Below are positions 4,931 through 25,554 of a stretch of 64,000 nt of DNA, one piece after another. The notes under the pieces were generated by a model. The model saw only the letters and a list, made by a program, of their open reading frames with translations, made no database searches and was not told the origin of the DNA. The DNA is from Pelomonas sp. Root1444 (lineage in GTDB: Bacteria; Pseudomonadota; Gammaproteobacteria; Burkholderiales; Burkholderiaceae_C). Where the stretch lies: positions 263 to 64,262 of the forward strand of contig NZ_LMFP01000033.1 of assembly GCF_001426885.1 (NCBI RefSeq). Reading direction: 5' to 3'. Position numbers and translations under genes: made by a program. Position 1 is the first letter of the stretch. The number at the start of each line of letters is the position of its first letter.

Positions 4931-4980
4931 GGTATCCACTGGTAAGACCAATCGCGTCTCGTGGCAAACTGGCATGACCG
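4931..4980 (+). promoter_or_regulatory. Double-operator promoter of the transport/catabolic operon
   Basis: A near-palindromic operator TGGTAAGACCA (4940-4950) is followed 25 bases from its first base by a -10-like CAAACT (4965-4970) and then by a weaker operator copy TGGCATGACCG (4970-4980). AAGACC inside the first operator could act as the -35 with 15-bp spacing. The segment from GGTATCCACTGG to TGACCG aligns almost base for base with 25490-25540 upstream of the first GH74 gene and shares its layout with 23780-23823. The TGGT-N3-ACCA pattern is typical of FadR-family GntR regulators. Confidence 0.7.
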
Positions 4981-5005
4981 AATGCCTTCCCTTCCCGTTT
5001 CCTCG

Positions 5006-6556
5006 ATGCGCTCGCCGCCCGCCGCTCCGCGCCCCGCCCCTTTATTGAGCATGCAAGGCGTCTGCAAGCGCTTCGACAACGTCGTCGCGCTGGCAGGCGT
5101 GGCCGTGGATGTCGACCGGGGCGAGGTTCACGCCATCTGCGGCGAGAACGGTGCCGGCAAGTCGACGTTGATGAAGATCCTCAGCGGCGTCTACACGCCC
5201 GACGAGGGCGAGATCCGCATCGACGGCGAGCCGCTGCGCATCCAGGGCCTGCATCACGCGCAGGCGCTGGGCATCGTCATGATCCACCAGGAGCTGAACC
5301 TGGTGCCGCACCTGACGGTGGCCGAGAACATCTGGCTGGGCCGCGAGCCGCGGCGTGGCTGGTTCGTCGACCAGACCCGGCAGCGCGAAGGTGCCCGCGC
5401 CTGCCTGCAGCGCCTGGCCGTGGACGTGGACCCGGACGCCCAGGTCTCCACCCTGTCGCTCGCGCAGCAACAGATGGTCGAGATCGCCAAGGCCTTGTCC
5501 ATGGACGCGCGGCTGCTGATCATGGACGAGCCCACCTCCTCCCTCGGCGAAACCGACAGCGCACAGCTGCTGCGTGTGGTCAAGGACCTCAAGCGCGCCG
5601 GTGTCGGCATCGTCTACATCTCGCACCGCCTGGATGAACTCGACGAGATCGTCGACCGCGTGACCATCCTGCGCGACGGCCACTACATCGCCACGCGCCG
5701 CTGGGCGGAGACGTCCATCGACGAGATCGTCGGGCTGATGGTGGGCCGCGAGCTGAACCAGCAGTTCCCGCCGCCGACACGTCAGCCTTGCGCCGACGTG
5801 CTGCTGCGCGTGCGCGGGCTGCGACGCGACGGCGCCTTCGGCCCGCTCGACTTCGAGCTGCGGCGCGGCGAGATCCTCGGCTTCGCCGGCCTGGTCGGTG
5901 CCGGCCGCACGGAAGTCGCGCGCGCCATCTTCGGCGCCGATGCCGTCAGCGGCGGCGACATCGAACTGCATGGCCAGCCAGTGCATATCCGCTCGCCGCG
6001 GGACGCCATCCGCGCCGGCATCGCCTACGTCTCGGAGGACCGCAAGGCCCACGGCCTGGCGGTGAAGATGAGCGTCGCGCACAACATCTCGCTGGCCAAC
6101 CTGGGCGCGCTGGCCGACAGGCTCGGCTTCATCGACGCGGCGCGCGAACGTCAGACCGCCGAACGCTTCATCGGGCAGCTCGGCATCCGCACGCCCTCGC
6201 CCGACCAGGTCGCCCGCCTGCTGTCGGGCGGCAACCAGCAGAAGGTCGTCATCGCCAAATGGCTGTTCCGCCAGGCGCGCGTGATCCTCTTCGACGAACC
6301 GACGCGCGGCATCGACGTGGGCGCCAAATACGCGATCTACGAGCTGATGGACCAGCTTGCCGCCCAGGGCGTCGGCATCGTGCTGATCAGCTCCGACCTG
6401 CCGGAGGTGCTCGGCATGAGCGACCGCGTGGCCGTCTTCCGCCAGGGCCAGCTGGCCCAGGTGCTGGACGCACGCCACTGCAGCCAGCACGACGTCATGC
6501 ACCACGCCTCGGTCGGCCCGACCGAAACCCGCGCCCTCGAACCGTCTCACTCATGA
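5006..6556 (+). CDS. Sugar ABC transporter ATP-binding protein 2 (RbsA/XylG type)
   Basis: Double-ATPase of a second CUT2 importer, 516 residues from this start. Walker A GENGAGKSTLMK, IHQELNLVP, Walker B LLIMDEPTSSL, the second-half GLVGAGRTE loop, LSGGNQQKVVIAKW and VILFDEPTRGIDVG are all present. Candidate starts are ATG 4982, 5006 and 5051. The predicted -10 at 4965-4970 would leave only a few leader bases before 4982, so 5006 is preferred. First gene of a nine-gene operon encoding uptake and oxidative breakdown of a sugar. Confidence 0.9.
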   Translation: MRSPPAAPRPAPLLSMQGVCKRFDNVVALAGVAVDVDRGEVHAICGENGAGKSTLMKILSGVYTPDEGEIRIDGEPLRIQGLHHAQALGIVMIHQELNLVPHLTVAENIWLGREPRRGWFVDQTRQREGARACLQRLAVDVDPDAQVSTLSLAQQQMVEIAKALSMDARLLIMDEPTSSLGETDSAQLLRVVKDLKRAGVGIVYISHRLDELDEIVDRVTILRDGHYIATRRWAETSIDEIVGLMVGRELNQQFPPPTRQPCADVLLRVRGLRRDGAFGPLDFELRRGEILGFAGLVGAGRTEVARAIFGADAVSGGDIELHGQPVHIRSPRDAIRAGIAYVSEDRKAHGLAVKMSVAHNISLANLGALADRLGFIDAARERQTAERFIGQLGIRTPSPDQVARLLSGGNQQKVVIAKWLFRQARVILFDEPTRGIDVGAKYAIYELMDQLAAQGVGIVLISSDLPEVLGMSDRVAVFRQGQLAQVLDARHCSQHDVMHHASVGPTETRALEPSHS

Positions 6557-7536
6557 CCGACCGCCAGAAAGACCTGATCCAGAAGTTCGCTGCGCTTGGC
6601 GGCCTGTTGCTGCTCGTGCTGGTGTTCTCGCTGACGAGCAACGCCTTCTTCACCGTGGGCAATGCGATGACCGTGTCGTTGCAGGTGACGACCATCGTCT
6701 ACCTGGGTATCGGCGCGACCCTCGTCATCCTGACCGGCGGCATCGACCTCTCCGTGGGCTCGGTGCTGGCACTCTCGGGCGTGGTCGCCGGCATGCTGGT
6801 CAAGAGCGGCATGCCGGTGCCGCCGGCCATGGCCATCGGCGTCGTCGTCGGCGCGCTGTGCGGCGCCGTCAACGGCCTGTGCGTCACGCGGCTGAAACTG
6901 CCGCCTTTCATCGCGACGCTGGGCATGATGCTGGTGGCCCGCGGCGTCGCGCTGCAGCTCACCGACGCGCGCGCGATCTCGGGCCTGGGTGAAGCCTTCG
7001 GCGTGCTGGGCAATGGCGCGCTGTGGCGCATCGAGGAGATCGACGAACAGGGCTTCCCCAACGTCGTCTTCCCCGGCATCCCCTACCCCGTGCTGCTGAT
7101 GGTGCTGCTGGCTGTCGTGGCCGGCATCCTGCTGCGCCGAACGACGCTGGGCCGGCACCTGCATGCGGTGGGCTCCAACGGCGAGGCCGCGCGGCTGTCG
7201 GGCGTGAACGTGGCGGGCGTGGCGATGTTCGCCTACATCGCGTCCGGCGCGCTGGCCGGCCTGGCCGGCTGCGTGCTCATGTCGCGCCTGGTGACCGCCC
7301 AGCCCAACGAGGGCGTGATGTACGAACTCGACGCCATCGCGGCGGCCGTCATCGGCGGCACCTCGCTGATCGGCGGGGTCGGCACGATCTCCGGCACGGT
7401 CATCGGCGCCTTCGTCATCGGCATCCTGCGCAACGGCCTGAACATGAACGGCGTGTCAGCCTTCTCGCAGCAAATCATCATCGGCCTGGTCATCCTCGTG
7501 ACCGTCTGGATCGATCAACTTCGCAACCGGCGCTGA
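6553..7536 (+). CDS. Sugar ABC transporter permease 2 (RbsC type)
   Basis: 327-residue inner-membrane permease with about eight to ten hydrophobic helices and the CUT2 signatures GGIDLSVGSVLALSG and VIGGTSLIGGVGTISGT. The ATG overlaps the stop of the ATPase gene (ATGA), indicating translational coupling. Together with the neighbouring ATPase and binding protein it forms a complete importer. Family membership does not settle the substrate. The downstream enzymes suggest an aldose such as L-galactose or L-fucose. Confidence 0.9.
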   Translation: MTDRQKDLIQKFAALGGLLLLVLVFSLTSNAFFTVGNAMTVSLQVTTIVYLGIGATLVILTGGIDLSVGSVLALSGVVAGMLVKSGMPVPPAMAIGVVVGALCGAVNGLCVTRLKLPPFIATLGMMLVARGVALQLTDARAISGLGEAFGVLGNGALWRIEEIDEQGFPNVVFPGIPYPVLLMVLLAVVAGILLRRTTLGRHLHAVGSNGEAARLSGVNVAGVAMFAYIASGALAGLAGCVLMSRLVTAQPNEGVMYELDAIAAAVIGGTSLIGGVGTISGTVIGAFVIGILRNGLNMNGVSAFSQQIIIGLVILVTVWIDQLRNRR

Positions 7537-7562
7537 AGACCGGTTCAAACAGGAGACATCCC

Positions 7563-8504
7563 ATGCCCCATCCCCTGCGCCACGCGCTGCTCAGCGCCTG
7601 CCTGGCCCTGCTCGGCAGCGCCGCCCATGCCGGCGAGATTGCCGTCATCGTCAAGACCACCAACTCGACCTTCTGGCAGAACGTCAACAAGGGGGCCGAG
7701 GCCGGTATCAAGGACGCCCCCGGCCACACGATGACCTTCGCCGGGCCGGCCAGCGAATCGGCCATCGCCGACCAGGTCAACCTGGTGGAGAACGCGGTGA
7801 ACCGGCGCGTCGCCGGCATCGTGCTGGCCCCGTCCGACCCGGACGCCCTGGTGCCCGCGATCAAGAAGGCCTGGGAGGCGCGCATCCCGGTCGTGCTGAT
7901 CGACTCCAGCGTGTCCGACGCCGGCAAGGCCTACTACCAGTCCTTCCTGACGACGGACAACCGCGCCGCCGGCGAACTGTGCGCCAAGGAGCTGATCGCC
8001 AAGATCGGCACCACGGGCAAGGTGGCCATCATGTCGTACGTGGCCGGTGCCGGCTCGGAGGTCGGCCGCGTCGGCGCCTTCAAGAGCTATCTGCAGGCCC
8101 ACTCCAAGCTGGAGATCGTCGGCCCGTTCTATTCGCAGTCGCAGATGGCCACCGCGATGAACCAGACCACCGACGTGCTGGCCGCCCACCGCGACCTCAA
8201 GGCCATCTTCGGCGCCAACGAGCCGACGGCCGTCGGCATGGGCCGCGCCATCGTGCAGAGCGGCCGCGCCGGCAAGGTGGTCGCCATCGGCTTCGACGGC
8301 AACCAGGACCTGCAGAAGTTCGTGCAGGACGGCGTGCTCGCCGGCATCGCCGTGCAGGGCTCCTTCCAGATGGGCCAGCTGGGCGTGAAGACCATCCACG
8401 ACGTGCTGCAGAAGAAGCCGGTGCCCAAGTTCCGCGACACCGGCGTGGTCTGGGTGCACAAGGGCAACCTGCAGTCGCCCGAAGCCAAAGCCGTGCTGTA
8501 TTGA
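7563..8504 (+). CDS. Periplasmic sugar-binding protein (RbsB family)
   Basis: 313-residue receptor for the second importer. Signal peptide MPHPLRHALLSACLALLGSAAHA, then the RbsB-type fold with VIVKTTNSTFWQNVNKGAEAG, the second-lobe YQSFLTTDNRAAG and the hinge IGFDGNQDLQKFVQDG. A strong AGGAGA Shine-Dalgarno five to ten bases before the ATG sets it apart from its coupled neighbours and fits the need for excess receptor. It lies between the permease gene and the aldose dehydrogenase gene, so its ligand is probably the substrate of that enzyme. Confidence 0.88.
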   Translation: MPHPLRHALLSACLALLGSAAHAGEIAVIVKTTNSTFWQNVNKGAEAGIKDAPGHTMTFAGPASESAIADQVNLVENAVNRRVAGIVLAPSDPDALVPAIKKAWEARIPVVLIDSSVSDAGKAYYQSFLTTDNRAAGELCAKELIAKIGTTGKVAIMSYVAGAGSEVGRVGAFKSYLQAHSKLEIVGPFYSQSQMATAMNQTTDVLAAHRDLKAIFGANEPTAVGMGRAIVQSGRAGKVVAIGFDGNQDLQKFVQDGVLAGIAVQGSFQMGQLGVKTIHDVLQKKPVPKFRDTGVVWVHKGNLQSPEAKAVLY

Positions 8505-8524
8505 TCGCCGATCGCATCAGCTCC

Positions 8525-9550
8525 ATGGCCCCGGAACGCTTCCCCAGCCGCCGTCTCGCCAGCATCGACCTGCGCCTGAGCACCCTCGGGCTCGGCGCCG
8601 CAGCACTGGCCGGCCTCTATGAGGCCGTCGACGACGCCACCGCAACCGCCACGCTGCAAGCCGCGTGGGACCGGGGCCTGCGCTACATCGACACCGCGCC
8701 CTTCTACGGCTACACGCTCAGCGAACGCCGAGTGGGCGCTTTCCTGGCTGGCCGGCCGCGCGACAGCTTCGTGGTGTCGACCAAGGTCGGCCGCCTGATG
8801 CAGCCGGACGCGACCGTGGCACCGGGCAGCGACGGCTGGGCGGCGCCATTGCCGTTCCGCCCGGTCTTCGACTACAGCCATGCCGGCGTGATGCGCTCCT
8901 TCGAGGACAGCCTCGCGCGCCTGGGCCTCTCGCGCATCGACATCCTGCTGGTGCACGACATCGGCCGGATGACGCATGGCGACCGACACGAATTGCACTG
9001 GCGCGCCCTGACCGAAGGCGGTGGCTTCCGCGCGCTGGAGGAGTTGCGCAGCCAGGGCCTGGTGCAGGCCATCGGCCTGGGCGTGAACGAATGGGAAATC
9101 GCGCGCGACGCGCTCGCGGCCGCGCCCATCGACTGCGTGCTGCTGGCCGGCCGCTACACGCTGCTGGAGCAAGGCAGCCTCGGCTTCCTCGACCAATGCG
9201 CCGACGCGGGCGTGAGCGTGTTGGTCGGTGGCCCCTTCAACTCCGGCCTGCTCGCCGGCCAGGCGAAGTACAACTACGGCGACGTGCCGCCCGACGTGAT
9301 GCGCCGTGCCGAAGCGCTCAGCGCTGCCTGCGCGGCGTTCGACGTGCCGCTGCAGGCTGCCGCGCTGCGGTTCCCGCTGGCGCACCGCGCCGTGGCCAGC
9401 GTGCTGGCCGGCATGCGTTCGCCCGAGCAAGTGGCCAGCAATGCCGCCTGGCTGCAGCAACGGGTGCCCGACGAGCTCTGGCTGGCGCTGCGTGAGCGCG
9501 GCCTGGTCGACGCCGCCGCGCCGCTGCCGACCAGTTCCAAGGAAAGCTGA
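8525..9550 (+). CDS. Aldo/keto reductase, NAD(P)-dependent L-fucose/L-galactose 1-dehydrogenase type
   Basis: 341-residue cytoplasmic enzyme of the aldo/keto reductase superfamily, D-threo-aldose 1-dehydrogenase branch. It shows YIDTAPFYGYTLSERRVG (catalytic Asp and Tyr), STKVGRL (catalytic Lys), LLVHDIGR and the VGGPFNSGLL nucleotide-binding segment. This branch oxidises L-fucose, L-galactose or D-arabinose at C1 to the lactone. The next gene is a matching lactonase that begins on the base after this stop codon. An upstream TTG at 8501 overlapping the preceding stop is a possible alternative start. Confidence 0.85.
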   Translation: MAPERFPSRRLASIDLRLSTLGLGAAALAGLYEAVDDATATATLQAAWDRGLRYIDTAPFYGYTLSERRVGAFLAGRPRDSFVVSTKVGRLMQPDATVAPGSDGWAAPLPFRPVFDYSHAGVMRSFEDSLARLGLSRIDILLVHDIGRMTHGDRHELHWRALTEGGGFRALEELRSQGLVQAIGLGVNEWEIARDALAAAPIDCVLLAGRYTLLEQGSLGFLDQCADAGVSVLVGGPFNSGLLAGQAKYNYGDVPPDVMRRAEALSAACAAFDVPLQAAALRFPLAHRAVASVLAGMRSPEQVASNAAWLQQRVPDELWLALRERGLVDAAAPLPTSSKES

Positions 9551-10396
9551 ATGAAGGTCGACGCGCACCAGCATTTCTGGCGCCTCGCGGACCGCGAGGG
9601 TCAATGGCCGCCTCCTGCCCTCGAAGCCATCTACCGCGACTTCGGCCCACAGGACCTGGCGCCGCATCTTCAGGCGGCCGGCATCGATGCCACCGTGCTC
9701 GTGCAGTCCATGCCCAGCGTTGCCGACACGCACTGGATGCTGTCGGTCGCCGCCGCGACGCCCTGGGTGCGCGGCGTCGTCGGCTGGGTGGACTTCAAGG
9801 CGGCGGATGCGCCCGCGCAGATCGACGCGCTGGCACGCGACCCACTGCTCAAGGGCCTGCGGCCGATGCTGCAGGACCTGCCGGACGACGACTGGATCGC
9901 CGATCCTGCCTGTGCCCCGGCCGCCGAAGCCATGCAGCGCCATGGGCTGGTGTTCGACGCCCTGGTGCTGCCCCGCCAACTGCCGGCACTGCGCCGCTTT
10001 GCCGAGCGCCACCCGGGGCTGAGCATCGTCATCGACCACGCCGCCAAGCCCGCCATCGCACGCGGCGAGATGGCGCCCTGGCGTGCCGACATCGCCACGC
10101 TGGCGGCCCTGCCGCAGGTGCATTGCAAGCTCTCCGGGCTGTTGACCGAAGCCGGCGACCGCCGCGACGCCGCCGCGCTGCAACCTTACGCGCAGGCGCT
10201 CTGGGAACTGTTCGGCCCCGGCCGCCTGCTGTGGGGCAGCGACTGGCCCGTGCTGCGCCTGGCCGCCGACTACGCGGACTGGTGGCAGCTCGCCCACGCG
10301 CTCGGCGCTCAATTCAAACCGATTCCCCAACCCGACGACCTGCGCGCGCTCTTCGGGGGCAACGCCACCCGCCTTTACCGCCTTCACCCATGCTGA
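9551..10396 (+). CDS. Amidohydrolase-family sugar lactonase (L-fucono/L-galactono-lactonase type)
   Basis: 281-residue cytoplasmic metal-dependent hydrolase of the COG3618 amidohydrolase group. The metal-site motif DAHQHFW is at the N-terminus, a second His in VIDHAAKP, and the conserved Asp in LLWGSDWPV. Characterised members open L-fucono-1,5-lactone and L-galactono-1,5-lactone to the acids. It follows the aldose dehydrogenase without a gap and overlaps the next gene by seven bases. Substrate choice between fuconolactone and galactonolactone is inferred from the operon, not from residues. Confidence 0.85.
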   Translation: MKVDAHQHFWRLADREGQWPPPALEAIYRDFGPQDLAPHLQAAGIDATVLVQSMPSVADTHWMLSVAAATPWVRGVVGWVDFKAADAPAQIDALARDPLLKGLRPMLQDLPDDDWIADPACAPAAEAMQRHGLVFDALVLPRQLPALRRFAERHPGLSIVIDHAAKPAIARGEMAPWRADIATLAALPQVHCKLSGLLTEAGDRRDAAALQPYAQALWELFGPGRLLWGSDWPVLRLAADYADWWQLAHALGAQFKPIPQPDDLRALFGGNATRLYRLHPC

Positions 10397-11400
10397 CCGT
10401 CATCTGCGAATCCCCCGGCTCCCTCGTCGCCCACGACCGCCCTCGCCCGGTGCGCAACCCGGGTGACGTGCTGCTGCGCGTCAAGCGCGTGGGCGTCTGC
10501 GGCACCGACCTGCACATCTTCACCGGCCACCAGCCCTATCTCGAGTACCCGCGCGTGATGGGTCATGAGATCTCCGGCGTGGTCGAAGAGGCCGACAGCG
10601 ACAGCGGCCTGCTGCGCGGCGACCCGGTCTACGTGATGCCCTACCTGTCGTGCGGCGATTGCATCGCCTGCCGCCAGGGCAAGACGAACTGCTGCGTGCG
10701 CATCCAGGTGCTGGGCGTGCACCGCGACGGCGCCTTCACCGAATTCGTCAGCGTGCCGCGTCGCTTCATCGGCAAGGCCGACGGCATCACGCTGGACCAG
10801 GCCGCGATGCTGGAGTTCCTCGCCATCGGCGCGCATGCGGTGCGGCGCGGCGAGGTGGCCGCCGGCCAGCGCGTGCTGGTGGTCGGCGCCGGCCCGATCG
10901 GCCTGGGGGTGATGATCTTCGCCAAGCTGCGCGGCGCCGTCGTCACCGCGCTGGACGGCCGCCGCGACCGGCTCGATTTCGCGCTCAACCAGGTGGGTGT
11001 GGGCGCCGCGGTGAACGTCGGCGAAGGCGACGAGGCCGAGCTGTCGCGCCTCACCGAGGGCGAGTTCTTCGACGTGGTGTTCGACGCCACCGGCAACCCG
11101 AAGGCGATGGAACGGGGCTTCCGCTTCCTTGCACACGGCGGGCGCTACGTGCTGGTGTCCATCGTCCAGGGCGATATCCGCTTCTCCGACCCGGAGTTCC
11201 ACAAGCGCGAGGCCACGCTGCTCAGCAGCCGCAACGCGACGATCGAGGACTTCGAAGTCGTCATGAAGGCCATCCGCGAAGGCCTGGTGCCCGACGCGGC
11301 GCTGGCCACGCACCGGCTGACGCTGGCCGAAGTCCCGGCCGGTTTCCAGCGCCTGCTGGACCCGGCCGAAGGCGTCATCAAGGCCATCGTCGAATGCTGA
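10390..11400 (+). CDS. Zinc-dependent sugar-acid dehydrogenase (L-galactonate 5-dehydrogenase-like)
   Basis: 336-residue medium-chain dehydrogenase. Catalytic zinc site in GVCGTDLH and MGHEISG; structural-zinc cysteines in MPYLSCGDCIACRQGKTNCC; Rossmann motif VVGAGPIGLG. Closest in character to YjjN/LgoD-type enzymes, which oxidise L-galactonate to D-tagaturonate with NAD. The ATG lies inside the end of the lactonase gene, so the two are coupled. In context it would oxidise the sugar acid produced by the lactonase and hand a keto-acid to the next enzyme. Confidence 0.85.
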   Translation: MLTVICESPGSLVAHDRPRPVRNPGDVLLRVKRVGVCGTDLHIFTGHQPYLEYPRVMGHEISGVVEEADSDSGLLRGDPVYVMPYLSCGDCIACRQGKTNCCVRIQVLGVHRDGAFTEFVSVPRRFIGKADGITLDQAAMLEFLAIGAHAVRRGEVAAGQRVLVVGAGPIGLGVMIFAKLRGAVVTALDGRRDRLDFALNQVGVGAAVNVGEGDEAELSRLTEGEFFDVVFDATGNPKAMERGFRFLAHGGRYVLVSIVQGDIRFSDPEFHKREATLLSSRNATIEDFEVVMKAIREGLVPDAALATHRLTLAEVPAGFQRLLDPAEGVIKAIVEC

Positions 11401-11407
11401 CGCTGCG

Positions 11408-12538
11408 ATGAGCGCTGGCCAGCCCATCCTGCAGTTCGGCACCAGCCGCTTCCTGCAGGCGCATGTCGACCTCTTCGTCAGCGAGGCCGCCGAACGCGGC
11501 GAGGCGCTCGGCGGCATCACGGTCGTGCAGACCACCGGCAACCCGGCCAGCACGCGGCGGCTGCAGGCGCTGGCGAGTGCGGAAGGTTTCGAGGTGCGGG
11601 TGCGCGGCCTGGTTGCCGGGCAGCCGGTGGAATTGCGCAAGACCTGCCGTTCGATCCGCGAAGCCTTTCATGCCGGCACCGACTGGCGCGCCGTGCGCGA
11701 CCGCGCATGCGGCCCGGTGCGCGTCATCGTCTCCAACACCGGCGACAGCGGCTGGGCGCTGGCGCCCGAGGATGGCGCGGGCCTGCTGTCCGCGGCGGCC
11801 GCGGCGCCGGCCTCGTTCCCGGCCAAGCTGCTGGTGCTGCTGCACGACCGCTGGCAGGCGCAGCCCGACGCCGAACTGACGCTGCTGCCGTGCGAGCTGG
11901 TGTCGCGCAACGGCGAGCGGCTGCGCGAGATCGTCCTCACCCTGGCGCGTGAATGGCAGTGCGCGCCGGCCTTCACCAACTGGCTGCAAGCCCGGCCGGT
12001 GTGGGCGAATTCGCTGGTGGACCGCATCGTCTCGCAGCCGCTGGAACCGGCCGGCGCGGTGGCCGAGCCCTATGCGCTGTGGGCCGTCGAGGCGCAGCCC
12101 CGGCTGCAGCTGCCGTGCCGGCATGCGGCCATCGTGCTCACCAACGACCTCACGCGGCATGAGCGGCTCAAGCTCTTTCTGCTCAACCTCGGCCACACGC
12201 TTCTGGCTGACTTGTGGATGCACGGCGGGCTGCCGGCCGACATGACGGTGCTGCAGGCCATGCAGGCCCCGGCGCTGCGCGAGCCGCTGGAGCAGGCCTG
12301 GCTGCAGGAAGTGGTGCCGGTGTTCGACGCGCTCGGGCAAGGCGACGACGCGCGCCGCTACCTGGTCGACCTGCGCGACCGGCTGCTGAACCCCTTCCTC
12401 GACCATCGCCTGGCCGACATCGCGCAGAACCACGCACAGAAGAAGGCGCGGCGCCTGCAGCCGGTGGTCGACCTGGCCCAGGTGCATGTGCCGGGCCTGC
12501 CCCAGCCCCGGCTGGCAGCCGCGCTGGCGGCACACTGA
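11408..12538 (+). CDS. Mannitol-dehydrogenase-family oxidoreductase, tagaturonate reductase-like
   Basis: 376-residue member of the polyol/uronate dehydrogenase family that includes UxaB (tagaturonate reductase) and UxuB. The N-terminal Rossmann start QFGTSRFLQAHVDLF and the active-site segment LLPCELVSRNG are clear. KLFLLNLGH supplies the conserved Lys, Asn and His. It is shorter than E. coli UxaB. Between the galactonate-type dehydrogenase and altronate dehydratase genes, the natural role is reduction of D-tagaturonate to D-altronate. Confidence 0.8.
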   Translation: MSAGQPILQFGTSRFLQAHVDLFVSEAAERGEALGGITVVQTTGNPASTRRLQALASAEGFEVRVRGLVAGQPVELRKTCRSIREAFHAGTDWRAVRDRACGPVRVIVSNTGDSGWALAPEDGAGLLSAAAAAPASFPAKLLVLLHDRWQAQPDAELTLLPCELVSRNGERLREIVLTLAREWQCAPAFTNWLQARPVWANSLVDRIVSQPLEPAGAVAEPYALWAVEAQPRLQLPCRHAAIVLTNDLTRHERLKLFLLNLGHTLLADLWMHGGLPADMTVLQAMQAPALREPLEQAWLQEVVPVFDALGQGDDARRYLVDLRDRLLNPFLDHRLADIAQNHAQKKARRLQPVVDLAQVHVPGLPQPRLAAALAAH

Positions 12539-12552
12539 ACAAGGAACACGCA

Positions 12553-12882
12553 ATGCAACGCATGGGCATGGTGATCGGCATCGCGCCGGAACACATCGCG
12601 GAATACAAGCGCCTGCACGCGGCCGTCTGGCCGGCGGTGCTGGCGCGGCTGTCCGCTTCCAACATCCGCAACTACAGCATCTTCCTGCGCGAGCCGGAGA
12701 ACCTCTTGTTCGGCTACTGGGAATACCACGGCAGCGATTTCGACGCCGACATGGCGGCTATCGCCGCCGACGTCGAAACCCGCCGCTGGTGGACCTTCTG
12801 CAGCCCCTGCCAGCGCCCGCTGGACAGCCGCGCGCCCGGCGAGCACTGGGCGTCGATGGAGTGCGTCTTCCATGTCGACTGA
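12553..12882 (+). CDS. L-rhamnose mutarotase family protein (RhaM-like)
   Basis: 109-residue dimeric alpha-beta barrel enzyme of the RhaM family, which interconverts anomers of L-rhamnose, L-fucose and related sugars. Visible family features are RMGMVIGIAPEHIAEYKRLHAAVWP at the start (His for acid/base chemistry), NYSIFLREPENLLFGYWEY in the middle and the C-terminal WASMECVFHVD. AAGGAACA precedes the ATG. It overlaps the altronate dehydratase gene by 11 bp. It would supply the anomer used by the aldose 1-dehydrogenase at the start of the pathway. Confidence 0.85.
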   Translation: MQRMGMVIGIAPEHIAEYKRLHAAVWPAVLARLSASNIRNYSIFLREPENLLFGYWEYHGSDFDADMAAIAADVETRRWWTFCSPCQRPLDSRAPGEHWASMECVFHVD

Positions 12883-14401: not shown

Positions 14402-14413
14402 GCGCTGCGCGGC

Positions 14414-15158: not shown

Positions 15159-15173
15159 ATTGGACTGACCAAT
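15159..15173. promoter_or_regulatory. FadR-type operator upstream of the regulator gene
   Basis: Palindrome ATTGGACTGACCAAT with core TGGACTGACCA, between the regulator start codon and its putative promoter. It matches the TGGT-N3-ACCA family seen at the other promoters with one half-site change, suggesting autoregulation. Confidence 0.65.
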
Positions 15174-15307: not shown

Positions 15308-15345
15308 GGTCGACGGTACGGCAGCGACGGCCGGGTCGGGGCCGC

Positions 15346-17166: not shown

Positions 17167-17301
17167 GGGATTCTTCGGAAGCAGGGAATGCGGTGGAGTT
17201 TGCTCGCGAGCGGCTCGGCACGCCGCGGCGATGCGACCGGCCAACCGCCGCCGCGACGAGCCACGGCCAGTGGCGATCAACGCCACCCTCAAGGGTAGCG
17301 C

Positions 17302-18774: not shown

Positions 18775-18872
18775 ACGGACTCTGCCAGGCTCGTCGGCGC
18801 AAACGACTGCGCCAACATCAATCACTTCTTTTCGGCCCGTCAGGCCGCCAGCGGTTCTGGCCTCTGAATGGA

Positions 18873-18903
18873 CATGCCGCCCGGACAGAGTCCGGGCGGC
18901 ATG
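18873..18903 (-). terminator. Strong 14-bp hairpin between receptor and halogenase 1
   Basis: Perfect arms CATGCCGCCCGGAC and GTCCGGGCGGCATG around a three-base loop, about 30 bp past the receptor stop codon. No T-run follows on the minus strand. It probably protects the receptor mRNA end and attenuates read-through into the halogenase gene. Confidence 0.55.
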
Positions 18904-18933
18904 CAGTCAGTCCAGCAGCGTCAGGAGACCGCG

Positions 18934-21900
18934 TCAGAACTCGTAGCGTGCACTCATCGAGTAGCTGCGGCCCGGGTAGAACCACGCACGCCCCATCGTG
19001 CCGATGTGCTGTTGCTGCGTCTGCCGGACGATGACGTTGTTCAGGTTCGTCACGTTGAGCGACACACCGAGCTTGTCGCTGATCTTGTAGTTGACGCCCG
19101 CGTCCCATTGACCGAACGCCTCCTGCCAGGTCGGCAGGCCCCAGCCCACGTCCTGGGCACCCGCACGCGCCGGGTCCGCGCTCGTCGCATCTTCGCCACG
19201 CGTGCCATTGGCATCTATCGCCTGCAGGATCCGGCTGTGCCAGTTGTAGGCCAGCCGCGCCGACAGCGGGCCGCGGTCATACATAAACACCAAGTTGTAC
19301 GCGTTCTTTGCCATGTAGGGCAGCGGCAGATCATTGAACGGCAGGCCGTTGGTATCGCAGCCGAACAGGTGCAGGGTGCCATTCGTCAACGCCTTGCCCG
19401 CATCGCAGTAGGGGTTGTAGATCTGCTTGTACAGGGTTTGCTTGGCATTGATGTAGGTGTAGTTGGCCGACACGCCGATGCCCTTGGCCCACTCCGGCAG
19501 CACGCCATCCAGGAACGGAAGCTTGTCCAGGTAGGTCATGCCCGCAACCTCGATGCCGCTGACCTTGGCCTTTGCCACGTTGTCGGGACCGGTGATGGGG
19601 AAAATCTGCGGATTGCCAGCCTCACTGTTGTAGGTACGGCTGTAGGCGACGTTCATGATGACGTCCTTGACATCTTTGTGGAACGCCGTGGCCGTGAGGG
19701 ACTGTCCGTCACGCGGGTACCACTCCAGCGCCAGGTCATAGCTGTTGGCCGTGATCGGCTTGAGCTTGACGTTGCCGGAGTTCTCGCCACGGTACGAAAC
19801 CGTCTGCTTTTCGGTGTTGTAGTCCTGCCAGAGCTTGATGTACTCGCCCAGCTGGTTGAAGCCGGGCCGGTTCATGCTCTGGGCCATTGCCAAGCGGGCC
19901 TGCAACCTGTCGGTGAAGTTCATCTTCAGGTTGAGCGACGGCAGCACCTTGACGAATTGGTTCCGCACGTCGAGTGGTTCGGTGAGGTCGAAGCGCGGCA
20001 GATGGGCAGGCGTCGTCGGGCTGTATTCCGTCTGGAAAACCGAGTAGCCGTGCGAGACGTCGCTGGTCAGCACAGCGCGCACGCCGACGTTGCCTTCGAT
20101 CGGGAACTTCAGGTCGTCGAAGCCGAAGCGCAGCGTGGCGTAGACCGCATTGGTCTGTTCGCTGTGCGTGCTGGTCTTGGACGGGTCATTGTTGTAAACC
20201 AGCTCCTGGAATTTATTCTCGTAGTCTGACAACTTGCACGGCGACTTGTTGACCTTGTACAGCGCATAGCCGTCCAGGCATTGCTGGTAGCGGTAGTCGT
20301 TGTACAGCGTCTTGTACGCGTTCGGGTAGTCGCGCACGGCGCCAATCGTCGGCATGACGATGTTCGGCATCTTGCCGACTTTGCCCCCATAGAAGTTGCC
20401 GAAGTTGAACGTTTCAACCGGCACACCTTGGTAGCGCGGGTCGTTCATGTAGGCGAAGCTTCCGCGCGACTGCCATGAGCCATCGTCCGGAGGCATCACG
20501 CCAGGCGTGATGTTCGGCCTGACACTCCACGGTTCAGCAATGGACGTCCAGCCGTTGCCCGTCGCCTCGTAGTGGCGTGCCACGCGGTAGGTGGTTCTCA
20601 CGCCTACACGGATGTCACGCAGGATGGGGTGATCCTCGAACCGGTAACGTGCGTCAACCTTCCAGGCGTAGAGGTCGGCATCGGCCTTGCTGGCGCCCGG
20701 CATGACCAGGTTCCAGTAATAATTCTTCGAGTCGGCCAGGTGATCCGCGCTGGTCTGGTCAAACCCGATGCGCACCGGGCTCTTTCCCTGTACGTCGATG
20801 CTCATGCTCGGCACGAAGGTGCCGAGCTGCATGTTGCGGCCGACGGAATCGTTCTTCGCATGAACCCATTGGAGGTCGTTCTGCAGCAGCCACCTGTCGT
20901 TGACGGCCCACTTGAAGTTCCACGCCAGTTCATTGGTCTGCGACTTGCTCTGATTCCAGCCGCGCGTGATTTGCAGGCCCAGGCCACCAAGAGCGGAGGT
21001 GTTTGCCCCGGCGCCGGTCAGATATTTGTAGGTGCCAGAGGTCAGTACGTTGTTGGCGTCATACGTCGCATTCTCGATCGTCGACTTGTATGCATTCTCC
21101 GTACCGGTGTAGAAGCCCTGCTCGCTGCCCGTCTCACGTGCGCCCGACATGAAATAGGTCAGCGACGAGTCCATGCCGTCCTTCTTCCACTGCAGCGCGC
21201 CGTAGAAGCCGGCGCGTTCGTTGTCGCCGGTGTTGTTGCGGAATGAAGCCGATTTCGGCGCCCACGCCGTCTTGCCAGGGATCAGGTTAGTGCGTGGGTA
21301 ATAGGCATCTAGCTGGATGCTCTCGTTCTGGAAGCTGGAGTGGTTGTAGGACAGGTCGACGAGTACGCCGACGCGCCCGATGTCCGTGTTCCATTGGGTG
21401 GTGTACAGCCCCGACACGTTGGGCGAATGCTTGCCCGAGCGCTGCGTGTAGTTGTTGCCCACCGACAGATAGGCCTTGGTGCCCTTGAAATCAAAGGGCA
21501 TGGCAGTACGCAGGTTCACCGTCCCGCTGACGCCGCCTTCGATGATCTCGCTGGAGGGGTTCTTGTAGACATCCACGCCGGCCATCAGTTCTGGCGGCAC
21601 GTCGCCCCAGCTCAGCTCGCGGCCCGGCCAACCGGCCGAGAACGACTCGCGGCCATTCAGCAGCGACGAACCCCAACTGAGGCCGCGCACGCTGATGCCC
21701 GAGCCTTCGACGGAGAAGTGCTCCGGGTCGCCACGCGACTTGTTGCGGTCGATGATGACGCCGACGACGCGCTGCAGCACTTCCGTGATGGACTTGTCCG
21801 GCAGCTTGCCGGCCTCTTCCGCGACGACCGAGTCAACGATCTCCTCGGCGTTCTGCTTGATCTTCTGTGCCGACTGCAGCGCCGCACGCTGTCCGGTGAC

Positions 21901-22023
21901 CACGACGGTCTCCAGGCTGGCCGGCTTGTCCGCCGCGGTCTGCGCGAAGGCAGCGCCGCCCATGGTGAGCAGCATCATGTGGACCATTCCGCGATGGATG
22001 GCGGTCGTTCTGAATTTTCTCAT
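18934..22023 (-). CDS. TonB-dependent receptor for oligosaccharides
   Basis: 1029-residue outer-membrane transporter. Signal peptide ending GGAAFAQ, a TonB-box-like LETVVVTGQR just after it, a plug domain (about residues 50-190: ISVRGLSWGSSLLNGRESF, VDVYKNPSSEIIEGGVSGTVNL) and a long beta barrel ending in GRSYSMSARYEF with the usual terminal Phe. The large size places it with the xanthomonad/Caulobacter-type carbohydrate receptors. GAGAGA precedes the chosen ATG. It is cotranscribed with the Ig-repeat lipoprotein 43 bp upstream and probably imports xyloglucan oligosaccharides. Confidence 0.9.
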   Translation of the reverse strand: MRKFRTTAIHRGMVHMMLLTMGGAAFAQTAADKPASLETVVVTGQRAALQSAQKIKQNAEEIVDSVVAEEAGKLPDKSITEVLQRVVGVIIDRNKSRGDPEHFSVEGSGISVRGLSWGSSLLNGRESFSAGWPGRELSWGDVPPELMAGVDVYKNPSSEIIEGGVSGTVNLRTAMPFDFKGTKAYLSVGNNYTQRSGKHSPNVSGLYTTQWNTDIGRVGVLVDLSYNHSSFQNESIQLDAYYPRTNLIPGKTAWAPKSASFRNNTGDNERAGFYGALQWKKDGMDSSLTYFMSGARETGSEQGFYTGTENAYKSTIENATYDANNVLTSGTYKYLTGAGANTSALGGLGLQITRGWNQSKSQTNELAWNFKWAVNDRWLLQNDLQWVHAKNDSVGRNMQLGTFVPSMSIDVQGKSPVRIGFDQTSADHLADSKNYYWNLVMPGASKADADLYAWKVDARYRFEDHPILRDIRVGVRTTYRVARHYEATGNGWTSIAEPWSVRPNITPGVMPPDDGSWQSRGSFAYMNDPRYQGVPVETFNFGNFYGGKVGKMPNIVMPTIGAVRDYPNAYKTLYNDYRYQQCLDGYALYKVNKSPCKLSDYENKFQELVYNNDPSKTSTHSEQTNAVYATLRFGFDDLKFPIEGNVGVRAVLTSDVSHGYSVFQTEYSPTTPAHLPRFDLTEPLDVRNQFVKVLPSLNLKMNFTDRLQARLAMAQSMNRPGFNQLGEYIKLWQDYNTEKQTVSYRGENSGNVKLKPITANSYDLALEWYPRDGQSLTATAFHKDVKDVIMNVAYSRTYNSEAGNPQIFPITGPDNVAKAKVSGIEVAGMTYLDKLPFLDGVLPEWAKGIGVSANYTYINAKQTLYKQIYNPYCDAGKALTNGTLHLFGCDTNGLPFNDLPLPYMAKNAYNLVFMYDRGPLSARLAYNWHSRILQAIDANGTRGEDATSADPARAGAQDVGWGLPTWQEAFGQWDAGVNYKISDKLGVSLNVTNLNNVIVRQTQQQHIGTMGRAWFYPGRSYSMSARYEF

Positions 22024-22066
22024 CGACTTGTCTCTCTCAATTGTTTGAAGTGAAGTCACGGCGTGT

Positions 22067-23686
22067 TCACTGCACGGTGATCTGGCCAAAGACGGTGATC
22101 TCGGTGCTGAGCGTGTAGTCGTCGTCCGTCGACTTCGGAGTCGTACCGTCTGCCCTCGGCGTTGGCTTGGTGGAGTTGATCTTGCCGGGCTCAAACACCA
22201 CCGAGCGGATGCCGTGCTCCCGGATCTCGGCAAGCGCGGCCGCCTTCGATTCGGCAGACAAGCCCCAGTCGAACCTCCACCCTTCAGTCTCGGGAAGACC
22301 GGCGATCTCGCACCTGTCAGTCACCACGAAGTCCTTGAACGGAATCACATAGCTGTTAAAGCCGGCAAATTTGGGAAGCACGTGCGCCGAGGCAGTCACA
22401 TAGCAGTTGTCGCCGTTGGCCTTCTTGTTGAAGTGATTGGTCTTGATACGCACGTACAAGCCACGTGAAGGTTGATCAGGACCATCGGCCTCAGTGACGA
22501 GCGCAGTGGCGTTGATGCCCACCGACACCATGATCGATTCCTCGGTCTTCACGTCGAAAGGAAGCCATTCGTAGTTGGTGTCGACCTTCTTTGTTGGGGC
22601 ACCGATCTCGGCCCTGAGGAAACCCCACCAGTTGTTGGAAGTGCCGTCCCAGTCCGGATTCAGCTTCTTGTTGGCCTCCAGAGTGAAAGTCGCGCCAAAC
22701 CCGGAAGCGAACGTAGTCAACTTGCAATTCGCCCCGCCCGGTCCATCAGCACACCAGGCGCGTGGAAAGCCCGCTGAGTATTTGATTTCACCGAACTGCG
22801 AAGTGCGCTTCGCTCCTGTGTCAAAGCCGCTTGCGTACGTACGCGGATCAACGATGACTTGGTAGTTCTCGGAAGTGCCTGCTGCGCTGGACAGGGTCAC
22901 CGCGCAGATGCCCTTGGCGGTCAGGCGAAGCTCATTGCCTGCCACCGCACAAACCGCGGGAGTGGTGCTTGCATACGTCAGGGCGTTGCCAGCAGCGTCG
23001 GCCGACCCCAGCGCGACCGTCCGAGTCATACCCTCCAACTGAGCCACCATCGGGAAGTCTGGGGTGATTCCAACAAAGACCATCGGCGCGTCCAGGGCGG
23101 CGTATGAGTCGTTGGCAGGCGCCGTCACCCCAAGCTGGCAAAGGCCCACGCTTTTCAAAGCGGTCAGCGTCGTGCCGCTGACGGTGCAGACCTCTGGCGT
23201 TGACGACACATAGGTCGCCGGAATACCCGCGCTGGTCTTGTCTGGCAGCGTGAAGCTTGCTGTAGCAGCGCGCAGAACAATACTCAGCGGCGTCATCGGG
23301 CGTTGTGGCGCTTTCAAAACCACGAACAGCTGGCTCGAATCGTCCGCGGCGGCCCATACAGTGCCGTCCGGGCCAGTCCCACCGGGCTGGCTGGCGATGA
23401 CTTGGCACTCGCCTGCGGCCACCAGCGTCACCTCCTTGTCCGCCACTGTGCAGGTAGCGGGCGTGCCGGAGCGGAAGCTGACCGGCAACCCCGACGTAGC
23501 GGCGGCGGACAACGCTGTCGGGCCGTTGAACAACGTGTTGCCGCCCGGATACTTGAAGTTGATGACCTGGAAGCGCCCGGTTGAGCCACCGCCATCACCA
23601 CCGCCTCCACCGCCGCAGGCGGCGAGAAAAGCGCAAGCCGCTATGACAGTCAACTTTCCGGCGCTCGCAACCAACTTTGTCTTCAC
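22067..23686 (-). CDS. Ig-repeat lipoprotein, putative surface glycan-binding protein
   Basis: 539-residue lipoprotein starting at a GTG with AGGAGA upstream; lipobox LAAC then a GGGGGGDGGG linker. Residues about 35-300 contain three Ig-like repeats with a recurring TP-VC-V pattern (GTPATCTVADKEVTL, STPEVCTVSGTTLTAL, TTPAVCAVAGNELRL). The C-terminal part (TYASGFDTGAKRTSQFGEI onward) looks like a beta-sandwich carbohydrate-binding region rich in Trp and Tyr. Being the gene before the receptor, it parallels the SusD/SusE-F glycan-binding lipoproteins of Bacteroidetes without homology to SusD. Function is inferred. Confidence 0.65.
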   Translation of the reverse strand: MKTKLVASAGKLTVIAACAFLAACGGGGGGDGGGSTGRFQVINFKYPGGNTLFNGPTALSAAATSGLPVSFRSGTPATCTVADKEVTLVAAGECQVIASQPGGTGPDGTVWAAADDSSQLFVVLKAPQRPMTPLSIVLRAATASFTLPDKTSAGIPATYVSSTPEVCTVSGTTLTALKSVGLCQLGVTAPANDSYAALDAPMVFVGITPDFPMVAQLEGMTRTVALGSADAAGNALTYASTTPAVCAVAGNELRLTAKGICAVTLSSAAGTSENYQVIVDPRTYASGFDTGAKRTSQFGEIKYSAGFPRAWCADGPGGANCKLTTFASGFGATFTLEANKKLNPDWDGTSNNWWGFLRAEIGAPTKKVDTNYEWLPFDVKTEESIMVSVGINATALVTEADGPDQPSRGLYVRIKTNHFNKKANGDNCYVTASAHVLPKFAGFNSYVIPFKDFVVTDRCEIAGLPETEGWRFDWGLSAESKAAALAEIREHGIRSVVFEPGKINSTKPTPRADGTTPKSTDDDYTLSTEITVFGQITVQ

Positions 23687-23779
23687 GTTTTGTCTCCTAG
23701 TTCTGCATAAAAGATGGCGAGGCACTTCCCCTTGGAGCTGGGACAGCGTTGTCGCCAACCGCTGATGCGATCGTATATT

Positions 23780-23823
23780 TGGTCTGACCAGCCGCGACTA
23801 GGGGCAAACTCTTGGTCTTACCA
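23780..23823. promoter_or_regulatory. Divergent double-operator region, halogenase 2 / lipoprotein-receptor
   Basis: Operators TGGTCTGACCA (23780-23790, perfect) and TGGTCTTACCA (23813-23823) flank a -10-like CAAACT (23805-23810), which again starts 25 bases after the first operator. Transcription to the right would begin near 23817, giving halogenase 2 a leader of about 33 bases. The same sites can control the leftward lipoprotein-receptor operon. A further palindrome CTGGTTGACCAG (23826-23837) has a two-base rather than three-base centre. Confidence 0.7.
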
Positions 23824-23849
23824 ATCTGGTTGACCAGACAATTCTTCCC

Positions 23850-25373
23850 ATGCGAAGCCAAGCTCTCAAAAAAGTCGTCATCGTTGGAGGTGGCAGCGCC
23901 GGGTGGATCACCGCAGCGCCCCTTGCGCGCCTGCTGTGCAGGCCTGGCCAGCCGGACCACTGCGAGGTGACGCTGGTTGAATCCGCGGAGATCGGCACCA
24001 TCGGCGTCGGCGAAGCCACGCTGCCCACCATCAGCTTCTACAACCAGCTGCTGGGCATCGACGAAGCCGAGTTCGTCCGCAAGACGCAGGCGAGCTTCAA
24101 GCTCGGCATCGAGTTCAGTGACTGGGGGCGCGTGGGCCACCGCTTTTTCCACGGCTTTGGCGGGTTCGGTCCAGGCATCCACAACCGGCCGCTATGGGCT
24201 TACTGGCTGCGGCTGCGCGAACAGGATCCCCAGCTGCCGTCCTACGAGGAATGGTCGACCGCAACGGTGATGGCCCGCAATTTGCGCTTTACGCGACCGC
24301 AACCCGACACGCCCTCGCCCGCAGGGGCCTTCAACTACGCCTACCACTTCGACGCCACGCTCTACGGCAACTACCTGCGTGAACATGCGCAACGCCATGG
24401 CGCCCAGCGCATCGAGGGCACGATCGTCCGCGTGGAGACATCAGAGGAAAACGGACAGGTCACGACGCTGCACCTCAGTGACGGGCGCCGCGTCGACGGC
24501 GACCTCTTCATCGACTGTTCAGGGTTTCGGGCACTGCTCATCGACGGGGCGATGAAATCGCCGTACGAAGACTGGAGCAGTTGGCTGCCCTGCGACCGCG
24601 CGATGGCCGTACCCTGCCAACGCACCGACCCGATGACGCCCTACACGACGTCCACCGCGCGCAGCGCGGGTTGGCAATGGCGCATCCCGCTGCAGCACCG
24701 CACCGGCAACGGCTTGGTGTACTGCAGCAGCCACCTCAGTGACGACGAGGCTGCGGGCCTTCTTCTCGGCAACCTGGACGGCGCGGCGCTGGATAAACCG
24801 CGGCAACAACGCTTTGTCACGGGGCGGCGCAAGCAGGCGTGGGTGAAGAACGTGGTGGCCATCGGGCTGTCCTCGGGTTTCCTGGAGCCGCTGGAGTCCA
24901 CCAGCATTCACCTCATCATGGAGGCGGTCGGCCGCCTCACGGCGCTGCTGCCTGACCGCAGCTTCCAGCCGACGCTGGCCGACGAGTTCAACCGCCAGAT
25001 GGCCCGTCGCTACGAGTCGGTGCGCGATTTCATCATCCTGCACTACAAGCTGACCGAGCGGCGCGACAGCGAGTTCTGGCGCCATTGCGCTGACATGCCC
25101 ATCCCGGACGACCTGGCCCACCAGATCACGCTGTTCCGCGAAACCGGACGCGTCGCCATCTTGGAGCCCGAGGGCTTCGGCGAGGCCTCATGGGCGTCCA
25201 TCCTGCTCGGGCTGGGCGTCGTGCCGCGCCGCCACGATCCCTATGTGGACCAGGTCGACATCGATATCGTGCGCCGGCACCTGGCAAGCGTGCACAGCGC
25301 CATTCGCAATGCGGTCCGGACGATGCCGTCCCACGCGGATTTCCTCGCCAGCGCGAACGGTTCCGGACCCTGA
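23850..25373 (+). CDS. Flavin-dependent tryptophan-type halogenase 2
   Basis: 507-residue paralogue of halogenase 1 with all family marks: GGGSAGW, IGVGEATLPTI, the catalytic lysine in ASFKLGIEF (about K84), WQWRIP and GLSSGFLEPLESTS with the active-site Glu. It has a longer loop after residue 100 than halogenase 1 (GFGGFGPGIHNRPLWAYW). Transcribed divergently from the lipoprotein-receptor operon from the double-operator promoter, so it should be co-regulated with xyloglucan genes. No flavin reductase gene lies in the window, so FADH2 must come from elsewhere. Confidence 0.88.
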   Translation: MRSQALKKVVIVGGGSAGWITAAPLARLLCRPGQPDHCEVTLVESAEIGTIGVGEATLPTISFYNQLLGIDEAEFVRKTQASFKLGIEFSDWGRVGHRFFHGFGGFGPGIHNRPLWAYWLRLREQDPQLPSYEEWSTATVMARNLRFTRPQPDTPSPAGAFNYAYHFDATLYGNYLREHAQRHGAQRIEGTIVRVETSEENGQVTTLHLSDGRRVDGDLFIDCSGFRALLIDGAMKSPYEDWSSWLPCDRAMAVPCQRTDPMTPYTTSTARSAGWQWRIPLQHRTGNGLVYCSSHLSDDEAAGLLLGNLDGAALDKPRQQRFVTGRRKQAWVKNVVAIGLSSGFLEPLESTSIHLIMEAVGRLTALLPDRSFQPTLADEFNRQMARRYESVRDFIILHYKLTERRDSEFWRHCADMPIPDDLAHQITLFRETGRVAILEPEGFGEASWASILLGLGVVPRRHDPYVDQVDIDIVRRHLASVHSAIRNAVRTMPSHADFLASANGSGP

Positions 25374-25423
25374 GCCTCATCGACAACGCCGCATCAGGGT
25401 TTGGTTCATTGAGCCGTGAAAAG

Positions 25424-25434
25424 CGGACTGACCA
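25424..25434. promoter_or_regulatory. Weak FadR-type operator
   Basis: CGGACTGACCA, two mismatches in the left half-site from TGGTCTGACCA; its right half and centre equal those of the operator before the regulator gene. Confidence 0.4.
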
Positions 25435-25436
25435 AA

Positions 25437-25450
25437 TGGTGGCGCTATCA
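25437..25450. promoter_or_regulatory. TGGT-GGCGCT-ATCA palindrome
   Basis: TGGTGGCGCTATCA resembles TGGTGTCGCTACCA at 25708-25721. Both have a central GCT and are followed closely by AAATG. The CGCTAYCA half-site also forms the inverted repeat upstream of the regulator gene. Possible LacI-family operator. Confidence 0.35.
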
Positions 25451-25489
25451 GCAAATGATGGTCACTTGCGTTGCGTTACATCCGACTGG

Positions 25490-25554
25490 GGTATCCACTG
25501 GTCAGACCAAGTTTCGAAACGTGGCAAAGTGGTTTGACCGTATTGGCCTGACCA
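25490..25554 (+). promoter_or_regulatory. Double-operator promoter upstream of GH74
   Basis: Perfect operator TGGTCAGACCA (25499-25509), -10-like CAAAGT (25525-25530), second operator TGGTTTGACCG (25530-25540) and third TGGCCTGACCA (25544-25554, inside the palindrome ATTGGCCTGACCAAT). The first 51 bases align with 4931-4980 with a single indel. Predicted transcription start near 25537 gives a leader of about 345 bases for the GH74 gene, so another promoter nearer the gene is possible. Confidence 0.7.

Follow-up and report, generated by a model that had tools for sequence, protein, structure and literature searches.

Three distant promoters in a 64,000-nucleotide stretch of Pelomonas sp. Root1444 (contig NZ_LMFP01000033.1, forward strand; the whole analysed stretch is called the window) share one composite layout. 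A TGGT-N3-ACCA operator (O1) is followed by a CAAA(C/G)T box and by a second operator (O2) at a fixed distance. From sequence comparison we conclude that the three promoters, P1 (4930), P2 (23780) and P3 (25489), probably form a single regulon under a GntR regulator of the FadR subfamily whose gene lies in the window, with the repression mechanism proposed below. That they belong to one regulon is well supported; the repression layout is plausible. The initial annotation had read the same promoters as one regulon for uptake, catabolism and carbohydrate-active enzymes (CAZymes), and this reading is strengthened by the candidate regulator that the window encodes, by conservation in relatives, by co-occurrence of regulator and composite, and by a genome scan under the spacing rule.

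Architecture of the three promoters

Read directly on the + strand, P1 consists of O1 (TGGTAAGACCA, 4940-4950), a CAAACT box (4965-4970, O1+25) and O2 (TGGCATGACCG, 4970-4980, O1+30), the last with two departures from the consensus. P2 carries O1 (TGGTCTGACCA, 23780-23790), CAAACT (23805-23810, O1+25) and O2 (TGGTCTTACCA, 23813-23823, O1+33), and P3 carries O1 (TGGTCAGACCA, 25499-25509), CAAAGT (25525-25530, O1+26) and O2 (TGGTTTGACCG, 25530-25540, O1+31; one departure from the consensus). The operator starts (4940, 23780 and 25499), box offsets (25, 25 and 26) and second-operator offsets (30, 33 and 31) first annotated are all exact. A third operator (O3) was found at P3 (TGGCCTGACCA, 25544-25554, O2+14), together with a degenerate 10-bp O3 at P2 (TGGTTGACCA, 23827-23836, O2+14), and an A-rich flank is repeated before O2 and O3. 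Box and O2 overlap by one base at P1 and P3, where the T that ends the box also begins O2; the two elements cannot be counted as independent in these promoters.

The whole 50-base segment had been described as conserved at 4931 and 25490. Conservation holds for two blocks, GGTATCCACTGGT(A/C)AGACCAA (20/21 identical) and CGTGGCAAA(C/G)TGG--TGACCG (18/21 identical), but not for the spacer between them, which is 8 or 9 nt long and unrelated in sequence. Directly 5' of O1 lies a GGGTATYCAC-like stretch (GGGTATCCAC; 4930-4939 at P1 and 25489-25498 at P3), also present in most composites of relatives and missing from P2 and from the arabinofuranosidase gene described below; it is perhaps an extra half-site.

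P2 had been assigned to a halogenase/receptor unit. The halogenase gene does lie 3' of P2, whereas the receptor operon is divergent and not downstream of this + strand promoter. Control of that operon by the P2 sites is the weaker part of the reading, because the operon is divergent; it is plausible, since similar hexamers stand 15-17 nt from the reversed O1 start in the window and in four relatives (TACGAT, TAAGAT, TAGTAT, TATGAT and TAAGAT in the window, L020, L021, L023 and L024, respectively; found by eye).

The candidate regulator

The proposed owner of the sites combines an N-terminal GntR winged helix (PF00392, 1.2e-19, above cut-off) with a C-terminal FCD domain (PF07729, 1.1e-26), the best of 10 FCD matches in the genome. 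Across an alignment of 34 sequences, D144, H148, H196 and H218 are conserved in at least 97%, and these residues would be the putative Asp-His-His-His ligand/metal site of the FCD domain. In the same alignment the recognition-helix region SRPSLREALIALEIDGRVEIRGGSG is nearly invariant in close homologues. The closest relatives of the protein come from an unclassified Burkholderiales metagenome-assembled genome and from Pelomonas and Roseateles strains. None of the 24 NCBIfam models listed is matched by the protein above its cut-off, and orthology to PdhR (75/330 bits against the equivalog or subfamily cut-off), LldR (123/311), NanR (113/260), ExuR (110/396) and UxuR (108/442) was rejected. Two tandem homologues occur in L015, L016, L017, L020 and L024, and genome G206 carries six.

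A single operator, TGGTCAGTCCA, ends 15 nt before the ATG of the regulator gene, directly behind TAAGAT, and we propose that it may serve autoregulation. The available parts of a survey of the FadR subfamily give its operators as TKGT-N3-ACMA (Suvorova et al. 2015, PMC4494728). Palindromes of this type were found near the target genes, and their binding by the regulator is predicted.

Conservation in relatives and co-occurrence with the regulator

An unselected test was performed on the regions 5' of abcA homologues (11 loci, identity at least 50%) and of the halogenase gene hal2 (4 loci), without motif preselection. O1, box and O2 were found together at five of the 11 abcA loci, four of them from the Roseateles group (L014-L017) and one from Ideonella (L028, box CAAATT). 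All four hal2 loci (L020, L021, L023 and L024) carry O1, GGCAAAC at +24 and O2 at +32, with O3 at O2+14 in three. In these hal2 promoters the distance from O1 to the box is kept while O2 lies 3 nt further off, which argues that the box is a separate element. Taken together, composites of relatives precede the orthologous transport operon and halogenase gene, and also TonB-receptor, GH35/42-like and GH74-like genes.

A second, motif-based search of relatives had box and O2 in its pattern, so that their conservation there is by construction. One composite selected in this way lies in another genus of the family (G074, L037), 5' of a sugar ATP-binding cassette (ABC) gene 65% identical to abcA. 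Another stands 5' of a porin gene (PF13609) in Variovorax paradoxus ISL-81 (L027 9864, - strand).

The genus sample took in every genome returned for this genus, 20 in total. The pattern TGGTNNNACC-N(13-18)-GGCAAA gave 29 matches in them against 8 for the backward control; O2 is also present in 17 (four in the own genome, three each in G200, G204 and G206, two in G030 and one each in G205 and G213) and missing from the remaining 12. A regulator homologue (E 1e-40 or better) was found in nine of the 20, namely the seven bearers of a composite plus G201 and G216, with two to six homologues in each. The full composite thus occurs in 7/9 genus genomes with the regulator and in 0/11 without it (Fisher P 0.0005, which is optimistic as the genomes are related). 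The G201 composite (L115) has CGGT in O1 and lies outside the search pattern.

For the family, 200 genomes were sampled, giving 13 strict-composite matches in 8 genomes against 1 in the control. Eight of these keep the last A of the operator; they come from the own genome, G030 and G074, all three of which have a homologue (1e-75 or better). The other five lack that A; their sequences hardly differ and seem to represent a single coding stretch. In the 15-21 kb surrounding regulator homologues 73-82% identical to the window protein, a composite is present at 9/11 loci (L014-L024).

Operator pairs across the genome

Within the window, 28 sites with at most one mismatch were counted against 15.7 expected, a number reached in 0/100 shuffles. 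Perfect TGGT-N3-ACCA sites number 40 in the 5.89-Mb genome and 4 in the window, which is 1.1% of the genome (binomial P 0.0009). The strict O1-box-O2 pattern matches four times genome-wide, against 0 for the backward control; the fourth match, outside the window, lies 5' of an alpha-L-arabinofuranosidase gene.

All perfect sites were scored with a 17-bp matrix trained on 22 distinct composites from relatives, the own genome being left out; several training composites come from the same species, and some loci are present under two names. The scores fall into 12 sites at 15.1-26.7 and 28 at 12.1 or less. Taking as a partner any site with a score of 9 or more within 60 bp, 11/12 high-scoring sites and 0/28 low-scoring sites have one (Fisher P 5e-9). 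Nine of the 12 (8 pairs) are paired at 30, 31 or 33 bp, and the remaining partners lie at 20 and 43. The initial annotation had called for a genome scan with an 11-bp matrix and a spacing constraint; with the 17-bp matrix, eight pairs at 30-33 bp are returned, mostly beside polysaccharide genes.

Gene-to-site assignment was made by eye, from position and strand and without a genome-wide background count of CAZymes. On this basis, the high-scoring sites outside the window adjoin, as candidate targets, an alpha-L-arabinofuranosidase gene of GH51 type (L096), a GH29 gene (L098), a gene for a PEP-CTERM protein followed by GH2 (L101), a gene for a Sde182-like protein (L099), a GH43 gene (L182), a GH31/CE2 gene (L173) and a hydrolase-like gene whose Pfam matches are all sub-threshold (L100). 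Boxes at +25/26 were read as CAAATT (L098), TAGACT (L100) and GAAACT (L101). Exported PEP-CTERM proteins with similar N-termini are encoded 3' of an operator pair in three species (L101 4198-4950, L066 and L087; including G200 and G204).

Proposed mechanism

Dimers of the regulator would bind the palindromic operators of TGGT-N3-ACCA type. A distance of 30-33 bp from O1 to O2 is about three helical turns and would leave the two dimers facing almost the same side of the helix; in many cases O3 follows 14 bp beyond O2. Dimers at O1 and O2 are probably cooperative, around a weak promoter with CAAA(C/G)T as its -10. If the box is the -10, O1 would cover -37 to -27 and so the -35 region, O2 would cover about -7 to +4, and O2 and O3 would occupy the start site, giving repression when substrate is lacking. 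The inducer may be a sugar acid from the neighbouring catabolic operon, such as L-galactonate, D-altronate or 2-keto-3-deoxygluconate (KDG), which would bind the FCD domain and free the DNA. Release would switch on uptake, catabolism and CAZymes together, including the dispersed arabinofuranosidase, GH29 fucosidase, GH2 and GH43 genes. In this picture the operators, their spacing and conservation, the co-occurrence, the regulator family and the further candidate targets come from computation, whereas binding by this protein and not by a paralogue, repression, the position of the -10, cooperativity and the inducer are inferred.

Counter-evidence and alternative explanations

Several results weigh against this mechanism or against the regulon as a whole. 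CAAA(C/G)T matches TATAAT at 3/6 positions only, and its T at position 6 is mostly the base of O2, except in the halogenase promoters; because that T is the first base of O2, it was dropped as support for a -10. The composite is missing at 6/11 abcA loci: at L022 there is a single near site and the box is missing, L029 and L030 are without a composite, and in L025-L027 the abcA homologue stands directly behind another gene, with no site. Of the 17 family-sample genomes with a homologue at 1e-60 or better, 3 have a composite of operator form and 14 lack it. L097, one of the highest-scoring sites, stands alone, with no partner inside 60 bp, and adjoins an outer-membrane-protein gene and no CAZyme, and L099, one of the eight pairs, has no A-second box at +25. 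Two paralogues in the own genome are 57% and 53% identical to the regulator, one with a near-identical recognition helix. The perfect 11-mer shows no genome-wide excess and is rarer than its backward control (40 vs 90), and a loose pair pattern with spacings of 19-49 bp shows none either (30 matches vs 71 in the control), so only scored sites at the fixed spacing of 30-33 bp stand out. The initial annotation had named equally frequent spaced pairs at unrelated genes as grounds for refutation; loose pairs do show no excess, whereas scored pairs at 30-33 bp occur only at the high-scoring sites and mostly beside polysaccharide genes.

The paralogues bear on who owns the sites. The operators could be real and yet controlled by another FCD regulator (C28:812572 or C28:880516), or by several paralogues in a shared network, an arrangement we regard as unlikely but worth serious weight. 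In addition to the identities of 53-57% and the several, sometimes tandem, homologues in each regulator-bearing genus genome, the recognition helix of the C28:812k protein is almost the same (SRPSVREALIALE vs SRPSLREALIALE), and the gene for that protein is preceded by similar sites at a distance of 42 bp from each other (L095 7282 and 7324). Those sites, however, carry the slightly different cores TGGCCTTACC/GTAAGGCC. The regulator gene of the window is adjacent and has a site of its own, and composites accompany its close homologues in the 9/11 loci given above; adjacency, the site before the gene and co-occurrence favour its product as owner.

If the window protein does own the sites, its action could still differ from simple repression at a CAAACT -10. 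The true -10 may lie elsewhere (for example TATATT at 23774-23779, abutting O1 at P2), the regulator may activate, or CAAA may be an extended flank of O2; we hold this to be a tangible possibility, though the less probable course. A sigma-70 scan gave no hit at either P1 or P3, and at P2 it picked out another promoter, TCGCCA-16-TATATT, next to O1. The A-rich flank repeated before O2 and O3 and the GGGTATYCAC-like stretch 5' of O1, common to P1, P3 and most relatives, point the same way, as does PdhR of the same subfamily, reported in the available text to activate some genes (PMC7660256). Against this, the halogenase promoters of the window and of 4/4 relatives have GGCAAAC 24-25 nt from O1 and O2 8 nt rather than 5 nt after the start of the box, which makes the box separate from O2; 3/4 of the further own-genome pairs also have CAAATT, TAGACT or GAAACT at +25/26, though the T there is that of O2. 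It is very improbable that the likeness of the promoters is meaningless for regulation, whether by chance or by recent duplication of one segment in the cluster. In its favour, the blocks of P1 and P3 are almost identical. Against it, the spacer between them is unrelated, P2 has diverged without losing the geometry, and other species, other genera and unlinked genes show that geometry too. Chance similarity was rejected on the counts of composites, of spacings and across species.

Genes of the window

The window is a cluster of plant-polysaccharide genes. The operon behind P1 encodes a sugar ABC ATPase, a permease, a binding protein, an aldo-keto reductase, a fuconolactonase-like amidohydrolase, a Zn-dehydrogenase and tagaturonate-reductase-like and altronate/galactarate-dehydratase-like enzymes. 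Together, the enzymes look like an oxidative pathway for L-galactose (or L-galactose/L-fucose), an assignment to be read with the scores of the five catabolic enzymes, all below the NCBIfam cut-offs (e.g., lactonase 225/400, tagaturonate reductase 215/359, galactarate dehydratase 371/731). In orthologues of P1 the ATG lies 63-72 nt after O1 (L070, L076, L080 and L083) or at +73 (L037), and L074 has an in-frame ATG at +68, its longest frame starting at +29; these positions suggest that the operon of the window starts at ATG 5006 (+66) rather than at 4982 (+42).

Coordinates of the promoters, operators and genes discussed in the text (positions in the window)
Feature	Position	Strand	Description
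P1	4930..4980	+	GGGTATCCAC element, O1, CAAACT box, O2; orthologous promoters
ABC transport/catabolic operon	5006..14401	+	behind P1
GntR/FCD (FadR-subfamily) transcriptional regulator, 243 amino acids	14414..15145	-	proposed to own the operators; convergent with the operon behind P1
Single operator TGGTCAGTCCA (TGGACTGACCA on +)	15161..15171	-	matrix score 15.8; before the regulator gene
First tryptophan-halogenase-like flavoprotein	17302..18825	-	Trp_halogenase 1.1e-161; receptor side
TonB-dependent receptor (TIGR01782)	18934..22233	-	divergent from P2
Predicted lipoprotein (N-terminus)	22067..23687	-	first gene of the divergent receptor side; GTG start about 23687
P2	23780..23836	+	O1, CAAACT box, O2, degenerate O3 TGGTTGACCA
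Second tryptophan-halogenase-like flavoprotein	23850..25373	+	Trp_halogenase 3.4e-182; 3' of P2
Extra operator-like site CGGACTGACCA	25424..25434	+	5' of P3; matrix score 16.3
P3	25489..25554	+	GGGTATCCAC, O1, CAAAGT box, O2, O3 TGGCCTGACCA
Glycoside hydrolase/carbohydrate esterase (GH/CE) cluster	25884..53160	+	behind P3

The cluster behind P3 holds three GH74-like, two GH62-like and two GH27-like genes together with GH5, GH29, GH28, GH31, GH97, GH42 and a sialate-acetylesterase-like gene, and may be transcribed as a whole from P3. Families of xyloglucan loci in the window are GH31, GH42/GH27-like, GH29 and the TonB receptor, their enzymatic activities being predicted only; the GH74 name, and with it a putative endo-xyloglucanase, is read from BNR/Sortilin-type repeats only. 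The first GH74-like gene, the first GH62-like gene and the GH5 gene (25884-32169) encode proteins with a similar N-terminal stretch some 205 residues long (identity to the GH74-like protein 73% and 77%), as if one leader or domain had been copied onto different catalytic domains. A leader of about 330 bases (25555-25883) separates P3 from the GH74-like start codon, and an Rfam search of this leader gave no match at the gathering threshold. In the relative L071, the GH74-like frame starts 526 nt after O1.

Two halogenase-like flavoprotein genes flank the TonB receptor and lipoprotein genes in the window, L020, L021 and L024. At the left edge of the window lies a sugar transporter of ChvE-GguA-GguB type (118-4115), with no site scoring 9 or more 5' of it (contig positions 1-700); in L018 and L019 the regulator homologue adjoins a transporter of this type. 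A transfer-messenger RNA gene was found at 55653-56025 (- strand; Rfam RF00023).

Relation to known systems and implications

The class of operator is known, and the regulon appears new in detail but of a familiar kind. Like the FadR-subfamily GntR proteins, the regulator has a winged helix and an FCD domain, with 3 nt between GT and AC in the palindrome, and double sites and extra half-boxes close to sites are on record for that subfamily, as are weaker half-boxes near many GntR-family sites (available parts of PMC4494728). A fixed O1-box-O2(-O3) arrangement at 30-33 bp and at scattered polysaccharide genes, by contrast, is found here and not in those parts of the survey. The Escherichia coli PdhR box, AATTGGTnnnACCAATT, has the same core as the operators of the window, whereas PdhR senses pyruvate and controls central metabolism (PMC7660256, text available in part), and the window protein reaches 75 vs 330 bits against its model.

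In the Cellvibrio japonicus xyloglucan locus, genes for a TonB receptor, alpha-xylosidase, beta-galactosidase and fucosidase are co-located, as genes of related predicted families are here; according to the available part of that report, the locus appears to be without a dedicated regulator, and the sensing proteins were then unknown (2014, PMC4285296). The term 'GntR' occurs nowhere in the main text of that paper or of one on xyloglucan utilization in Xanthomonas (PMC8245568), whereas here a GntR regulator and its candidate sites lie in the locus. The reactions of the lgu cluster for L-glucose and L-galactose in Luteolibacter LG18 (sugar dehydrogenase, L-galactonate dehydrogenase, tagaturonate reductase and altronate dehydratase) resemble those predicted for the operon of the window. 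That cluster belongs to another phylum, and its LguR is annotated as helix-turn-helix (HTH) type, 'GntR' being absent from the available part of the text (PMC12632266). The window operon, unlike the lgu cluster, has an ABC transporter and a lactonase-like gene, and its predicted regulon reaches CAZymes. No description of such a regulon was found in the open-licence PMC literature, judged by titles and abstract starts among the matches listed.

In its broadest form, the reading is that one FadR-type regulator senses the catabolic acid of a rare side-chain sugar (of L-galactose or L-fucose type) and controls, by way of a fixed promoter module of three operators, a whole plant-polysaccharide programme of receptor, transporter, catabolism, flavin halogenases and dispersed CAZymes; this we advance tentatively, at somewhat less than even confidence. 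If true, it would be a proteobacterial counterpart to the regulation of polysaccharide utilization loci, with a portable promoter cassette, in a betaproteobacterium. The regulon would also tie the halogenase-like genes of such loci to polysaccharide use through regulation. It is a candidate answer to how proteobacteria sense xyloglucan, a question open as of 2014 in the available part of the Cellvibrio report (PMC4285296), and for a Roseateles/Pelomonas strain a named candidate regulator, predicted operators with strict spacing and unlinked candidate targets make that question directly testable.

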